From positions 62,001 to 126,000 of the forward strand of contig JAHBVR010000001.1 in assembly GCA_019637395.1 (NCBI GenBank): a stretch of 64,000 bases of DNA. The letters are read 5' to 3'. Made by a program: the position numbers and the translations under genes. Numbering within the stretch: the stretch's first letter is position 1; each line of letters opens with the position of its first letter. The DNA is from Vulcanimicrobiota bacterium. GTDB lineage: Bacteria; Vulcanimicrobiota; Xenobia; Xenobiales; JADMJV01. Below the pieces are notes generated by a model. The model saw only the letters and a list, made by a program, of their open reading frames with translations, did no database searches and had not been told where the DNA came from. Below are positions 18,589 through 34,772 of this stretch, piece after piece.

Positions 18589-19071
18589 ATGGGTGGAGTT
18601 AATAAAGTTAATCAGAACCAGCAGGCCGGAGCTTCGATCAGCATCGCTCTCTCGCTCAGCACCGGACTCGGCGCAGCCGCCAACGCCGGTGGCGCTCAAG
18701 CTTTTGCAGGCCCGAATGGCGCCTTCGCGCAGGCCGGTGGACCCGGCGGACTCGGATCTTTCGCTCAGGCCGGCAACTTCGGCCCCAACGGCAACGCACT
18801 CGCCGGTAACTTCGGCGGCCCCGGCTTCCCCGGCCAGGGTGGCCCCCAGAACGCCTTCCAGGCTGGCTTCCAGCAGGGGCAGATGGCCGGCAAAATGAAG
18901 AGATTGATGCGTAAAATGCACAAACTGATGCACCAGATGGGTGGCGGTTTTCCTGGTGGTCCGGGGGGCTTCGGTGGACCTGGTGCCTTCGGTGGCGGAT
19001 TCCCCGGTTCTTTCGGAGGTTTCCCCGGTGGCGGTTTCCCCGGCGGCGGCTTTCCCGGCCGGCTGTTCTAA
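18589..19071 (+). CDS. Glycine-rich protein, paralogue A (MGGVNKVN family)
   Basis: 160 residues from the ATG at 18589 (ribosome site GAGG 8 bases before). No known family recognised. Layout: conserved N-terminus MGGVNKVNQNQQAG; a small-residue hydrophobic stretch SISIALSLSTGLGA; Gly/Ala/Phe/Asn-rich segments with GGLGSFAQAG and GPNGNALAGNFGGP; a short cationic helix KMKRLMRKMHKLMHQM (about 105-120); and a Phe-Pro-Gly-rich tail. No signal peptide. Its closest visible relative is the inverted paralogue at 22695-23147. A strong terminator follows, so it is monocistronic. Low complexity with Phe/Gly spacing suggests self-assembly or phase separation; this is inference. Confidence 0.75.
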   Translation: MGGVNKVNQNQQAGASISIALSLSTGLGAAANAGGAQAFAGPNGAFAQAGGPGGLGSFAQAGNFGPNGNALAGNFGGPGFPGQGGPQNAFQAGFQQGQMAGKMKRLMRKMHKLMHQMGGGFPGGPGGFGGPGAFGGGFPGSFGGFPGGGFPGGGFPGRLF

Positions 19072-19095
19072 GAGGCCCAAACCTCCCTACGAAAG

Positions 19096-19125
19096 AGACC
19101 AGGTTCGCCTGGTCTTTTTCTTTTC
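19096..19125 (+). terminator. Rho-independent terminator
   Basis: The 8-bp perfect stem AGACCAGG/CCTGGTCT closes an ultra-stable TTCG tetraloop and is followed by TTTTCTTTTC. It lies 24 bases after the stop of Gly-rich paralogue A. Confidence 0.92.
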
Positions 19126-19163: not shown

Positions 19164-20498
19164 ATGAGCGCTTTTTTGCAGCGAGCCTTCGCCAACTGGG
19201 ATTGCATCTACATTTGCCAGATGAAGGACTTCTGGCCGCGCATGCAGGCTGTGCTGACCTTCCAAAATCCTGACGAGTATACCATCACCATTGGTGAATG
19301 GCTGCTGGAAGCGCGACCGGGCCCTCAACTCCCGGCCGGAGAATCGTCGGTGCGCGCGGCCTTGCGCCAGGATCCGGATTGTCTGCTGGTAGCCCAAGCC
19401 GAGGGAGACCAGGGACCGCTGCTGCTGCAGGCGGCCCTGACCGGACACCGGGTGGTGGCCGGCTTCGCTCTAACTCCGCGTCAGGTACTGCAAAAACTTC
19501 TGGAGGAGCAGGAGGGCTTGGGTTTCACCCAGGCGCGTAGCCTCTTCTTCGAGCCGGACGGCCTCTGGATCTATTCTCCGGAGAAAGATATCTTTGAGCG
19601 CGTCAGCGCCTTTGAAGAGGGAACCTTCCGCGATCTGATCTTACCCGCGGAACCGCCGCCTCCACCTCCCCCGCCGGCGCCCGAACCCCTACAAGCGCCG
19701 GCCGAATGGGGACCCGCCTCCCCCCTGCTCCCCGAACTGGAAGCTATCTTTACGCCTCTGGCCCGGCCATGTTATGCGCCGCTCTTTAACGATGGCCCCC
19801 GGGCCGGCCAGTTCGGTGGCCGCCCGCGCCTGGCCCCATCCGAAGAATGGCCGCGCTGTGGCGCCTGTCAGGAACGCCTGCATCTGGTCTGCGAACTCGA
19901 TTTAGCTCAGCTACCCGAGAGCCGGCCCTTTCCCGCCAGCGGCTGGCTGCAGCTTTTTTACTGCACGTCAGACCACTGCGACCATCCGCAGGCCTGGGGA
20001 CCGTTCAGCCACAACGCACTGGCGCGGCGGCTCCCCGAGGGGGAGCCGGCCCTGCTGGCGCCTCCGAACTCCGCTCATCCGCAACGCAACATCACCGGCT
20101 GGCAAGCGTTGCTAGATTACCCGGGCTGGGAGGAACGCCCGCCCTTAAATGATCGACAACGCACGGCCAGTTACAATCTGGAAGAACCGGCCTTTCTGGA
20201 GCATTTTGGCCTGACGCAACCAGCGAATCGGGAAAGGGCGGCCGCCTATTTTCGCAATTATCCGGGCGACAAACTGCTCGGCTGGCCCGCCTGGACGCAA
20301 AGCGCGGACTATCCCCGATGCCCCCAATGCGCCAGGCCCATGAGCATGTTTTTCCAAATCAACAACGATGGTCAGGACTCACAAGAGCCTGGGTATACTT
20401 CTTGTCATGGCCAGATTTTCGCGGCAGACGGAAACGGCCATATCTTTGTGTGCGCGATACATCCTGATCAGTTAACCTTCAGCTGGGCCTGCGGATGA
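19164..20498 (+). CDS. DUF1963-like protein with extra N-terminal domain
   Basis: 444 residues from the ATG at 19164 (another in-frame ATG at 19221). The C-terminal 250 residues resemble DUF1963/YwqG proteins: FGGRPRLAPSEEWPRCGACQ, a middle YCTSDHCDHP segment and WPAWTQSADYPRCPQCARPM, with three CxxC or similar Cys pairs that may bind zinc. The N-terminal 150 residues contain TPRQVLQKLLEEQEG and a strand-rich section, and are joined by a poly-proline linker (about 155-165). YwqG-type proteins have no firmly known function. It ends 25 bases before the GspE-like fusion gene and is probably co-transcribed with it. Confidence 0.75.
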   Translation: MSAFLQRAFANWDCIYICQMKDFWPRMQAVLTFQNPDEYTITIGEWLLEARPGPQLPAGESSVRAALRQDPDCLLVAQAEGDQGPLLLQAALTGHRVVAGFALTPRQVLQKLLEEQEGLGFTQARSLFFEPDGLWIYSPEKDIFERVSAFEEGTFRDLILPAEPPPPPPPPAPEPLQAPAEWGPASPLLPELEAIFTPLARPCYAPLFNDGPRAGQFGGRPRLAPSEEWPRCGACQERLHLVCELDLAQLPESRPFPASGWLQLFYCTSDHCDHPQAWGPFSHNALARRLPEGEPALLAPPNSAHPQRNITGWQALLDYPGWEERPPLNDRQRTASYNLEEPAFLEHFGLTQPANRERAAAYFRNYPGDKLLGWPAWTQSADYPRCPQCARPMSMFFQINNDGQDSQEPGYTSCHGQIFAADGNGHIFVCAIHPDQLTFSWACG

Positions 20499-20523: not shown

Positions 20524-22623
20524 ATGAGTTTCAAATCGAACCTCCAACTGGTCGTGCTCGACGGGCCGGCCGCCGGACGAACCATTCCTCTGGACGCCAA
20601 GAATCTCAAATTAGGCCGGGAAATCCGTCCCGGCGGGACTCCGCCCAAAGACTCCATCTGGATTGAAGATCCCACCATTTCGCGGCTGCACATCGAGCTA
20701 AAGTGGGACAACAGCCAGAAAACCTACCTGGTGATGCATCGCTCCAAAACCAACTTGACTCGAATTAACGGCCAGTCCATCGATAAGTACCTGCTCAAAG
20801 TGGGGGACCGCATCGGCATGGGCTCCGGCCTGCTGGAAGTTCAGCGCCCCGATTCTTTTCAACCGTCCCAGAAAGCCGGCAAAGATCTGCAGCCGGGCCA
20901 ACAAAAATGTCCACGCGACCGCACCACTCTGGCGCCCACTCCGCTGCGCAACCAGGTGGTCGGCATGAGTTGCTCTTATTGCAACGGCGTCTGGCTCTCG
21001 GCGGGCGACCTGGCCCGTGTCCACGGCCACTCCCAAGATTTGGAGGACGCCATCGAGGTGGAGGCCCGGGGTCAAGGGCTTCGTTGTCCTCACTGCGACC
21101 TGGTCATGGGGGCCTGCTATTTGCCCAATTCGGGAGGGCTGGATGTGGTGCGCTGCCGCCGCTGCCAGGGAGTCTGGTTCGATACCGACGGCCTGAAACT
21201 CGCTCTGGGCGCAATTCGCCGCTCTCACGGAGCAGCCCCGCTGACCCCTCCGGTGGAGGCCCTGTTGGAACCGTCGGCCGGCCACATACCGCCATCCGGC
21301 GAGACTCCACGGGTCGACCCGGAAGGCCGCAGCGCCATGATGAAGCGGCTCAAGCGTCAGAAAGAAGAAGCCCTGGGGGGAAACGCCGCCATACCCCCCA
21401 CTCCACCTCCGGCCACGGAGATCCCGAACTCGCTGGATCTGCTATCGGCGGCGCCCACAGTCGGAGCCTCCACCATCGAATTGCTCGACGGCCTGCTCAA
21501 ACAAGCCGTGGAAACCGGAGCCAGCGACATTCACTTCGAAGGCGTGCGCGACCAACTGCGCATCCGCATGCGCGTGGACGGTCAATTACGGGTGGTCCAT
21601 TTACTGCCCAAGGCCAATCACAGTCCCCTGGTCGCTCGCCTGCAGGTTCTTTCCAACCTCAACACGGCCAATCCGTGGATCGCCCAGGACGGCCATTTCT
21701 CGACCTTCATCAACGGCCTGGCTTACGACTTCCGGGTGGCCACCGTGCCCACCGACAAAGGCACCGCCTGCGTGGTGCGCCTGCTCGACCGCCACCGCAA
21801 CGTGGCCGAACTCGACGACCTGGGCATGCACCCGCACGACCTGGAGCTCTTCCAGCAAGCCCTGGAACGCCCCCAGGGAATGATTCTGGCCACCGGCCCC
21901 AGCGGCAGCGGCAAGACCACTACCCTGTATGCGGCCATTCAGCGCCTGGCTTCGCGCAATCTCAAAGTAGTGACCATCGAGGACCCGATTGAATATCAAG
22001 TGGATCAGGTTGTGCAGGTAGCGGTCAACCACAAAGTCGGCCTGGACTTTGAAAAAGCGCTGAGAGCCGCCTTGCGCATGGATCCGGACGCCATTCTGGT
22101 AGGTGAAATCCGCGACCGCGAAACGGCCGATATTGCCGTGCAGGCCTCGCTGACCGGCCACTTGCTGCTCTCCACTCTGCATACGCGCGGCACGGTGGAA
22201 ACACTGCTGCGCCTCGTCGATATGGGTTGTGAGCCATACCTGGTCAAGGAAGTGGTCAGTTGCGCCATCGCTCAACGCCTGGTGAGGGTGCTCTGTGCCC
22301 GGTGCAAAGAAGCCTACCATCCCTATAGCGAGGAGGTCGAGGCCTTCATCAGCGACAGTTCGTCGGTGCACCAACTGACTTTCTACCGGCCGCGCGGCTG
22401 CGAGGAATGCTCCCACACCGGCTATAGAGGCCGCACCGCCGTCAGCGAATTGATGGCCAACAATGACGCCATCCGCGCCGCCACCCAGGCCCGCCTGACC
22501 GCCCGCGAGATTCGCGAAGTGGCCATCCGCTCCGGCATGCGCTCCTTCTCCGCCAACGCCTTCGACAAAGTCAGCCAGGGCTTGACCAGCCTGGAAGAAG
22601 TCAAACCCTACCTTGTTCCCTGA
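20524..22623 (+). CDS. FHA - zinc ribbon - GspE/PilB ATPase fusion
   Basis: 699 residues. Residues 1-108 look like an FHA domain (LKLGRE at 29-33, TISRLHIE at 51-58, NGQSI), which binds phosphothreonine. Residues 125-235 hold two TFIIB-type zinc-ribbon repeats (C129/C150/C153 and C188/C191/C211/C214, each ending in a GVW[LF] signature). After a Pro-rich linker, 315-699 is a secretion ATPase of the GspE/PilB family: ASDIHFE, Walker A GPSGSGKTT (458-466), Asp box IEDPIEY, Walker B ILVGEIRD, His box STLHT, and the tetracysteine CARC...CEEC. PilB/GspE normally carries an N1/N2 (T2SSE_N) domain instead. It should power pilin or pseudopilin assembly. Confidence 0.9.
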   Translation: MSFKSNLQLVVLDGPAAGRTIPLDAKNLKLGREIRPGGTPPKDSIWIEDPTISRLHIELKWDNSQKTYLVMHRSKTNLTRINGQSIDKYLLKVGDRIGMGSGLLEVQRPDSFQPSQKAGKDLQPGQQKCPRDRTTLAPTPLRNQVVGMSCSYCNGVWLSAGDLARVHGHSQDLEDAIEVEARGQGLRCPHCDLVMGACYLPNSGGLDVVRCRRCQGVWFDTDGLKLALGAIRRSHGAAPLTPPVEALLEPSAGHIPPSGETPRVDPEGRSAMMKRLKRQKEEALGGNAAIPPTPPPATEIPNSLDLLSAAPTVGASTIELLDGLLKQAVETGASDIHFEGVRDQLRIRMRVDGQLRVVHLLPKANHSPLVARLQVLSNLNTANPWIAQDGHFSTFINGLAYDFRVATVPTDKGTACVVRLLDRHRNVAELDDLGMHPHDLELFQQALERPQGMILATGPSGSGKTTTLYAAIQRLASRNLKVVTIEDPIEYQVDQVVQVAVNHKVGLDFEKALRAALRMDPDAILVGEIRDRETADIAVQASLTGHLLLSTLHTRGTVETLLRLVDMGCEPYLVKEVVSCAIAQRLVRVLCARCKEAYHPYSEEVEAFISDSSSVHQLTFYRPRGCEECSHTGYRGRTAVSELMANNDAIRAATQARLTAREIREVAIRSGMRSFSANAFDKVSQGLTSLEEVKPYLVP

Positions 22624-22650: not shown

Positions 22651-22686
22651 AAAAGAGCCCGGCCTGATTCCAAGCCGGGCTCTTTT
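22651..22686. terminator. Bidirectional terminator
   Basis: The 13-bp perfect stem AAAAGAGCCCGGC/GCCGGGCTCTTTT around a 10-base loop provides a U-run on both strands. It ends the GspE-fusion transcript (plus) and the Gly-rich paralogue B transcript (minus). Confidence 0.93.
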
Positions 22687-22694
22687 ATAAGGAG

Positions 22695-23147
22695 CTAGAA
22701 GAGTGGGCGAGGGCCGGCGAAGCCGAAGTTCCCGGCCTGGGCGAAGGCGCCGGGCCCGCCGGCCGAGGCGAAGGCGCCGCCAGGGCCATTGAATCCACCG
22801 GGCACTCCGCCGTTCATCTGGGACATCAAGCGGTGCATTTTGCGCATCAACCTCTTCATCTTGTGGTGGGGCCCATGGTGGCCGTGCGGGCCGTGCGGGC
22901 CACCGAATCCGGGAGGGCCACCGAAGTTGCCGGCCAGCGCGTTACCGTTGGGGCCAACCGCTCCCGCCTGCGCGAAGGAACCCAGACCACCGGGTCCGCC
23001 AGCCGAAGCGAAGGCTCCGCCGGCGTTGGCGATGGCCTGCGCGCCGCCGGCGGCAGCCTGAGCGCCGAGTCCGGTGCTCAGCGACAGCGCGATGCTGACT
23101 TGAGCTCCACCGGCCTGATTGGTGTTAACCTTATTGACTCCACCCAT
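22695..23147 (-). CDS. Glycine-rich protein, paralogue B (MGGVNKVN family)
   Basis: 150 residues from the ATG at 23147 with GAGGAT upstream. By eye it aligns along most of its length with paralogue A: the same MGGVNKVN start, SIALSLSTGLGA, AGGPGGLGSFAQAG, GPNGNALAGNFGGP and a cationic KMKRLMRKMHRLM helix. It differs in a His/Pro-rich insert before the helix (GPHGPHGHHGPHHK) and in its tail, which repeats the AFASAGGPGAFAQAG block. No signal peptide or known domain. Together with paralogue A it brackets the DUF1963-like and GspE-fusion genes. Function unknown. Confidence 0.75.
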   Translation of the reverse strand: MGGVNKVNTNQAGGAQVSIALSLSTGLGAQAAAGGAQAIANAGGAFASAGGPGGLGSFAQAGAVGPNGNALAGNFGGPPGFGGPHGPHGHHGPHHKMKRLMRKMHRLMSQMNGGVPGGFNGPGGAFASAGGPGAFAQAGNFGFAGPRPLF

Positions 23148-32711: not shown

Positions 32712-33379
32712 GCCGAGGTTTTCAGGCGGGCCGAGAAGAGCAGGCTGGCCGGCGGCCCGCTCAGGCGCAACCCCAGCGGAGCTTCCATGGTGTGGCCGTC
32801 CAGTTCCACCTCCGCCTGTTGCAACGGCCAGCGCTGGTGATAGACGCGGGCGCGGAAGACGCGCCCGTCGGGATGCTGAGAAAAGAGCCAGTAGCGCTCG
32901 GTGAGAAACTCCTCCAAGGAGCCGGCCTGGGAGCGAAAGACCTCACCCACCGGCCGGAAACGACCGGAGAAATGGACCCCGGGGGAGCCGCGGTGGGTGC
33001 GGCGCACCCAGTAATGGCACCAGCCGCGCTCCCAGCGCCGTTCAAAGCTGGCATCGAAATAAGGAAGGTGGAAAAAGGCGCGGGCGGCGCGCACGGCCAG
33101 GGGATGGGCGCAGTCCAGACTGAAGAACCAGACTCCGGATACGGCCCGATCGCGCACGTAGGTGCGCACGTTGAACTCGGGAAAGGCCGAGAGGCCGGGG
33201 ATGTCGGGGAAGCCGGTGGGCTTGACGCCGGTCATGGTAAAGGGCACCAGCGCCAGCCAGGCCCAGCCGTCGTAAGTATTCACCTCCAGGGCTGCGGGAA
33301 TGAAAGGGCGTAGCTCGGCCACCCGCACCGGCCAGTGCAGGAAACACAAATCCAGCCAGTTCATTTGCATGACTTTCAC
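32684..33379 (-). CDS. DUF2071 (YqjF-like) protein
   Basis: 231 residues from the GTG at 33379 (in-frame ATG at 33370). The opening MNWLDLCFLHWPV, then LRPFIPAALEVNTYDGWAWL and GVWFFSLD, are the hallmarks of the DUF2071/YqjF family, which has an acetoacetate-decarboxylase-like fold. The usual catalytic Lys of acetoacetate decarboxylase is not evident, so function is unknown. Faces the small membrane protein gene on the other strand across 35 bases. Cytoplasmic. Confidence 0.85.
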   Translation of the reverse strand: MKVMQMNWLDLCFLHWPVRVAELRPFIPAALEVNTYDGWAWLALVPFTMTGVKPTGFPDIPGLSAFPEFNVRTYVRDRAVSGVWFFSLDCAHPLAVRAARAFFHLPYFDASFERRWERGWCHYWVRRTHRGSPGVHFSGRFRPVGEVFRSQAGSLEEFLTERYWLFSQHPDGRVFRARVYHQRWPLQQAEVELDGHTMEAPLGLRLSGPPASLLFSARLKTSAQLLEPAEL

Positions 33380-33414
33380 AGGTAGCCACCTTCCCGGCGC
33401 GAATTTCCCACTCT

Positions 33415-33798
33415 ATGATTGGAATTCCCTCCGCCTCCGAAGACTCGGCGCCTCTAACCTCTCGAGCCATCTGGTCGGACTGCCTGGCTTATTGGGAGCC
33501 TCGCCGGCTGGTATACAATGGGCTGCTGGCCCTGGTGGTTCTGCTCCAATTACAACAAAACCATTGGTGGGCGGACTTCCTGACGGGGGCGTCTCTACTG
33601 CGTCTGGTCATCGCCGTGGCGCTGGCCAATCTGTGCTATACCACTGCTCACGCCATCGATCTGGCCATCCAGCATTCCGACTTTCGCAAGTTCTGGCTCG
33701 ACATGCGGGGCTGGCTCTTCGCCGCCGGCAGCGTGTTGGGCAGCGTGCTCGCCTGCGTTTTCCTACCGGTCTTCGTGTTGGGGCATCCTTGGCTATGA
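33415..33798 (+). CDS. Small membrane protein coupled to GspF/PilC
   Basis: 127 residues, no family recognised. Three hydrophobic helices (about 33-50, 60-80, 103-123) connected by short loops, with a Trp-rich first loop. The stop overlaps the start of the GspF-like gene (ATGA), so it is translated with it. It could be a small partner of the pilus platform protein; that is inference from position only. RBS not evident. Confidence 0.65.
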   Translation: MIGIPSASEDSAPLTSRAIWSDCLAYWEPRRLVYNGLLALVVLLQLQQNHWWADFLTGASLLRLVIAVALANLCYTTAHAIDLAIQHSDFRKFWLDMRGWLFAAGSVLGSVLACVFLPVFVLGHPWL

Positions 33799-34772
33799 AC
33801 GGACTCTTCGGCGGCTTTCCGCTCAAGTACAAAACCGTCTTCTTCCGCCAACTGGCCACCATGATCACCTCGGCTCTACCGTTGGATCGGGCTATCAGCA
33901 CGGCCGGCACCGGCGTGCTGCCCCAGGCCCGGGCCATCGGCCAGAGCATCCTGGCCGGCAACAGCTTTTCCAAGGCCCTGGCGGCTTACCCTTATCTGTT
34001 CAGTGAGTACGAAGTGGCCATGATCGCTACCGGCGAGACTTCGGGCACGCTCGACACCCAGCTCAACGTGCTGGCGGCGGAGCTGGAACAGACCCACCAG
34101 CTGGTGCAGAGCCTCAAGTCCAAGCTGCTCTACCCTATTTTTGTGGCCCACTTCGCGCTTTTCGTGCCCTCTCTGGTGGTCCTGGTCAAGGACGGAGTCG
34201 AGCCTTATCTGAAGATGACCCTGGGCCTGCTGATTCCTATCTACCTGATGCTGGGATTCCTCTGGACAGGCTATCGCCTGGGCACCACCACCGGCACCTT
34301 CCGCTACCTCATCGACACCACTTTAAACCTGGTGCCGGTGCTGGGCAGCGTGTTGCGGTTGCTGGCCCTGACCCGCTTCACCCGGGCCCTTTCTCATCTG
34401 GTCGAGGCCGGCACCCTGCCCTATCAGGCTTTCCAGGTGGCCGCCCGGGCCTGCGGCAACAGTTGGGTGCGCAGCCGGCTCTACACCAGCTACCGGCGCG
34501 TCGGGACCGATGGCAAACTCTCGCAAATGATGGGCCTGGCCTACCTTTTCCCCGTCACCGTCACCTCGTTGGTGGAAAGCGGCGAGGAGACCGGCCAGCT
34601 GGGACCCATGCTGGCCAAAGGCGCCGAGCTTCTGGAGATGGAGTATCGCGCCAGGGTCAACCTGGTCATGACCCTTCTGCCCGTGGTCATGCTGCTCGGC
34701 GTAGGCGGCCTGGTCGGCTTCCGCGTCTACAAACTCATGATGGCCACCTACGCCCCCATCTTCGACATGTAG
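33795..34772 (+). CDS. GspF/PilC-type inner-membrane platform protein
   Basis: 325 residues from an ATG overlapping the upstream stop. Two GspF domains (about 15-130 and 215-320). The first has FFRQLATMITSALPLDRAI and ATGETSGTLDTQLNVLA; the second has ALTRFTRALSHLVEAGTLPYQAF and VESGEETGQLGPMLAKGAELLE. Membrane helices lie at about 110-135, 150-175 and 300-320. It should be the platform protein of a type IV pilus or type II secretion assembly driven by a GspE/PilB ATPase. It is shorter than classical PilC (about 400) at the N-terminus. Confidence 0.88.
   Translation: MNGLFGGFPLKYKTVFFRQLATMITSALPLDRAISTAGTGVLPQARAIGQSILAGNSFSKALAAYPYLFSEYEVAMIATGETSGTLDTQLNVLAAELEQTHQLVQSLKSKLLYPIFVAHFALFVPSLVVLVKDGVEPYLKMTLGLLIPIYLMLGFLWTGYRLGTTTGTFRYLIDTTLNLVPVLGSVLRLLALTRFTRALSHLVEAGTLPYQAFQVAARACGNSWVRSRLYTSYRRVGTDGKLSQMMGLAYLFPVTVTSLVESGEETGQLGPMLAKGAELLEMEYRARVNLVMTLLPVVMLLGVGGLVGFRVYKLMMATYAPIFDM

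Follow-up and report, generated by a model that had tools for sequence, protein, structure and literature searches.

An FHA domain and tandem zinc ribbons in place of the N-terminal domain of a GspE/PilB-type ATPase from a Vulcanimicrobiota bacterium

The usual N-terminal control domain of a GspE/PilB-type secretion motor is swapped for an FHA domain and two zinc ribbons in a 699-aa protein of a Vulcanimicrobiota bacterium (20524..22623, forward strand, ATG start; coordinates refer to the window, the whole 64,000-nt stretch of contig JAHBVR010000001.1 that was analysed). Among the mechanisms that could apply to this FHA-zinc-GspE protein, phospho-gating is the best supported by its predicted features, and we put roughly even chances on a mechanism in which a partner bearing phosphothreonine recruits or gates the motor through the FHA domain that replaces MshEN.

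Results

All three domain types of the protein were matched by Pfam above their curated cut-offs. The FHA domain (residues 1-110; 20524..20853, delimited by Pfam, PDB matches and alignment) matches PF00498 over residues 30-100 (E 1.5e-10, 42 bits, cut-off 20.7). It is followed by two stretches matching Zn_ribbon_TFIIB (PF13453), the best at residues 128-165 (E 2.8e-8, 33.5 bits, cut-off 22) and the other at about 187-225, which together with the alignment place the ribbons at 20905..21021 and 21082..21198. A low-constraint linker, modelled with low confidence (residues 241-315; 21244..21468), leads to a T2SSE motor made up of N2 and C-terminal domains (21469..22620), identified by PF00437 over residues 316-693 (E 2e-115) and by Foldseek. 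Each of these parts lies on the forward strand. A sequence-only reading had placed an FHA fold at residues 1-108 and two TFIIB-like zinc ribbons within 125-235, in lieu of the usual N-terminal domain. The profile search of the head bears this out, with FHA and zf-TFIIB both matched above cut-off and the coordinates of that reading holding. MshEN/T2SSE_N (PF05157) gave no Pfam match in the protein down to E 0.1, which agrees with the replacement and rules out the head as an MshEN variant; MshEN (N1) is present in many T2SSE paralogs of relatives. The AlphaFold model of the head was uninformative, with a pLDDT below 50 and an input alignment of only nine rows.

In an alignment with about 27 relatives, the FHA domain retains the ligand residues G31 and R32, S53, R54 and H56, N77, and N82 and G83, and thus carries the GR, SxxH and N residues by which a phosphothreonine-binding FHA domain is predicted. 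The GR, SRxH and ligand asparagine also occur in most FHA relatives of the phylum. By sequence, the nearest solved structures (PDB matches) are GarA/Rv1827 and OdhI, whose ligand residues are identical to those of the head. These are small stand-alone regulators, whereas here the FHA domain heads a motor and lacks a long N-terminal extension. Ribbon 1 has only three cysteines (C129, C150 and C153), with CPRD where one CxxC would be expected and the other CxxC present, and this CPRD form is common to most stand-alone double-ribbon relatives in the phylum that align at ribbon 1. Both CxxC knuckles are complete in ribbon 2 (C188/C191 and C211/C214). Stand-alone proteins that resemble the ribbons are encoded in open frames of about 116-141 residues.

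The motor domain had been described as intact. That holds for Walker A (GPSGSGKT, 458-465), the Asp box, Walker B and GEIRD (527), the His-box TGHL at 544 and the tetracysteine zinc site (C591/C594 and C626/C629), but eight of the 84 near-invariant core positions are altered (76 retained), the changes including E414T and N555R, both of which are found in the ortholog too. The motor was modelled with high confidence and folds like PilF, PilB and EpsE (Foldseek, best E 2.4e-44), and structure alignment gives 44% identity to Vibrio cholerae EpsE. The fold and motifs are thus those of GspE (EpsE) and PilB. These carry the MshEN c-di-GMP input domain, whereas the protein described here has a different head and no MshEN. 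It scored 446 bits with the NCBIfam GspE model (equivalog cut-off 630) and 410 bits with the PilB model (cut-off 676), reaching neither. Membership of CpaF/TadA was ruled out by its TIGR03819 score, 59 bits where the cut-off is 373. In the tree, the branch leading to the core is long (1.38) and falls outside the phylum's clades of PilB, GspE and kinase-fused proteins; a position next to Escherichia coli HofB was distrusted as a long-branch join.

A relative in Candidatus Eremiobacterota has an ortholog at the equivalent place, amid the same neighbours; where the two proteins align, their identity is about 86-91%. Against this ortholog, dN/dS was 0.047 in the FHA domain and 0.040 in the ribbons; the two parts of the ATPase gave 0.040 and 0.048, and the linker 0.19. 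The ratios, estimated by NG86, are rough because dS exceeds 1. Values of 0.04-0.05 in all three domains indicate that the fusion is real and that its domains have been jointly maintained by selection. The ortholog's contig carries a frameshift that splits the gene, with dN/dS of about 0.045 on either side. Since it consists of a single C missing from a CCC run, it either arose very recently or reflects an error of assembly. Of the 149 genomes searched in the phylum, two have the full head, which rules out a widespread family. The support proposed in the sequence-only reading, an architecture shared across numerous related genomes, did not materialise, as just one other species carries the protein. 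A pattern scan, by which alone phyla beyond its own were covered, returned one GTDB contig with the full head (L039), with a frameshift identical to that of the ortholog's genome, G001, and the two are probably one genome. Among plasmids, there was no match to the full head.

Together with a partner that ends 25 bases upstream on the same strand, the gene forms a two-gene cassette, in which it comes second. The partner (19164..20498, forward strand, 444 aa) comprises a pseudo-ATPase piece and DUF1963 (PF09234, E 2.9e-12). Its N-terminal piece resembles the T2SSE stretch that spans the Asp and His boxes, with the P-loop absent and GEIRD lost; PF00437 matches it below cut-off (E 5.8e-4; 8e-5 on its ortholog, which is 69% identical), and its residues 26-100 are 33% identical to residues 478-551 of the FHA-zinc-GspE protein. 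AlphaFold gave no usable model of the partner (pLDDT 32). The cassette is flanked by genes for two Gly-rich paralogs that are 76% identical, an MGGVNKV... protein on the left (18595..19071, forward strand) and a convergent one on the right (22695..23147, reverse strand). The hairpin scan found a terminator-like hairpin between the left Gly-rich gene and the cassette (19091..19120, forward strand), of a kind no commoner in the sequence than in shuffles. An inverted repeat read from the sequence at 22651..22687, AAAAGAGCCCGGC...GCCGGGCTCTTTT, is likely a two-way terminator; it was absent from the output of the scan, which had a loop limit of 8. In G003 nothing lies in the slot between the two Gly-rich genes; in G004 it is occupied by a dCTP-deaminase defence gene (PADLOC, E 6e-145) and an ORF resembling a transposase. 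This difference in content between congeners marks the slot as variable and the cassette as accessory cargo. The neighbours are genes for the DUF1963 protein, the Gly-rich proteins, a P450 and acetate kinase; next to the FHA-zinc-GspE gene there is none for a kinase, pilin, secretin or GspF, and the nearest T2SSF gene is 11 kb off.

A domain search of the genome gave about 91 Ser/Thr kinase, 33 FHA, 43 T2SSF (GspF) and 22 T2SSE genes. Forty-three GspF/PilC-like genes is a very large number for one genome, and one such gene in the window (33300-34772) has no obvious secretion genes around it. Two T2SSF (GspF/PilC) proteins are fused to an N-terminal FHA domain (L132:1950-3479 and L133:1559-3103; G000:C34 and C3), one of the two FHA calls being just under the Pfam cut-off, and with four congeners searched, full-length relatives of this fusion are present throughout the genus (five of five genomes). 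In three overlapping gene pairs (L173:1342-4166, L174:2002-4760 and L175:1019-3629), a Ser/Thr kinase gene lies upstream and its end is overlapped by a T2SSF gene; the kinases have intact VAIK, HRD and DFG motifs, and two of the three T2SSF proteins have a GAF head. As a statistical excess, adjacency of kinase and T2SSF genes is weak (three observed genome-wide vs. 1.3 expected), but the overlapping operons themselves stand. A kinase-like N-terminal half is also fused to a PilB-type T2SSE, followed by a PilC-like T2SSF gene, at L075:3751-6951 (G000:C34). This fusion is present in eight genomes of the class (orthologs L101, L103, L104 and L108-L111), and in one of these proteins Pfam detects a GAF domain as well. 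Activity of the fused kinase was ruled out by the change of the VAIK lysine to arginine, of DFG to EFG in most copies, and by HRDLRPDS; with its lysine lost and the DFG aspartate mostly lost, the domain is probably a pseudokinase.

Discussion

The suggestion that Ser/Thr phosphorylation gates secretion here found backing in the ligand residues and in a genome rich in kinases and FHA domains, but not in the neighbourhood of the gene, where secretion genes are absent. In the mechanism we favour, a Ser/Thr kinase would phosphorylate a threonine in a protein located at the inner-membrane platform, the partner possibly being a GspF/PilC-like or kinase protein. Six FHA heads, if the motor is hexameric as its family suggests, would dock on the phosphothreonine, and the ATPase would be recruited, activated or released, the direction of control being conjectural, as is phosphothreonine binding itself. 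Once recruited, it could drive assembly of a pseudopilus or pilus, with the zinc ribbons as a putative structural or protein-binding neck. Retention of the FHA ligand residues, the abundance of kinase genes and the presence of other pilus or secretion parts that are FHA-fused or kinase-paired argue for this mechanism. It is weakened by the lack of an adjacent secretion or kinase gene, by occurrence in two species only and by the slight excess of kinase-T2SSF adjacency, as well as by the missing catalytic residues of the PilB-fused kinase, the unusual E414T and N555R changes and the low-confidence model of the head. FHA domains can also act independently of phosphorylation, which counts against it as well.

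It is conceivable, at about half the likelihood we give to phospho-gating, that the FHA domain and zinc ribbons form a docking module that works without phosphorylation, in the manner of the FHA-like folds of YscD or EssC, and ties the motor to one special platform or to the cassette partner. The head does resemble Yop-YscD_cpl in Pfam (E 1.4e-6, below cut-off), the partner gene just upstream is conserved, and zinc ribbons frequently mediate protein contacts. Phosphorylation-independent FHA-like folds often lack the canonical phosphothreonine-binding residues, however, and here those residues are kept under strong selection. Somewhat less probable is an accessory cassette that works outside standard secretion, for example in defence or surface competition, with the ATPase and its DUF1963 partner as a separate two-component device. 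Such a role would fit a slot that lacks cargo in one congener and has transposase-like and defence genes in another, the long branch of the core outside the PilB and GspE clades, and the patchy distribution. Against it, PADLOC defence models fit neither cassette protein save for a weak P-loop match, and maintenance in two species with dS above 1 is unlike rapid-turnover cargo. A decaying or spurious fusion without function, to which the frameshift on the ortholog's contig and the eight altered core positions might point, is very improbable and largely refuted by the equal constraint on both sides of the frameshift and by its nature as one lost C, an assembly error or very recent event.

The same earlier reading regarded FHA and GspE as uncommon in one chain. 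The protein described here is indeed rare, but FHA-headed secretion ATPases have been published, namely class III CpaF (FHA-IDR-CpaF), mostly of betaproteobacteria (PMC12019362), and KilF of Myxococcus xanthus, for which contact signalling was proposed (PMC8460266). The idea of an FHA-headed motor is therefore not new. Class III CpaF/TadA likewise bears an N-terminal FHA domain on a pilus-motor ATPase of the same superfamily, but it has a disordered region and a three-helix bundle where our protein has zinc ribbons. The core here is of the GspE/PilB class with a tetracysteine, unlike CpaF/TadA, and Tad genes are not adjacent. KilF resembles it in having an FHA head and a host rich in FHA proteins, but is Tad-like and part of the Kil apparatus, whereas the gene studied here belongs to an orphan two-gene cassette. 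New here are a core of the GspE/PilB class and the zinc ribbons in tandem, and MshEN is lost as a further difference. A literature search for the combination of FHA, zinc ribbon and GspE/PilB found no report, which is not proof of absence.

Several PilB/MshE motors have c-di-GMP, acting on MshEN, as their established input (PMC11656802), and this is the best-known direct input to GspE/PilB; here MshEN appears to have been naturally swapped for a predicted phosphothreonine reader, which suggests that the N1 position of these motors is a swappable input socket. Phospho-gating would also offer a testable route for control of pilus or secretion output by Ser/Thr kinases, given platform proteins that likewise bear FHA domains or overlap kinase genes. 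More tentatively, with a likelihood of about one in three, Ser/Thr phosphorylation may be built directly into the T2SS/type IV pilus machinery of this lineage (Eremiobacterota/Vulcanimicrobiota), where FHA or kinase-like domains on motor and platform, together with kinase-platform operons, would provide an alternative to input by c-di-GMP; the FHA-zinc-GspE protein would be one member of this scheme. As a separate observation, several relatives encode MshEN-T2SSE ATPases with a C-terminal double zinc ribbon and response-regulator receiver domains (L096:2912-5290, L105:2765-4879, L106:2409-4592 and L113:2696-5044).
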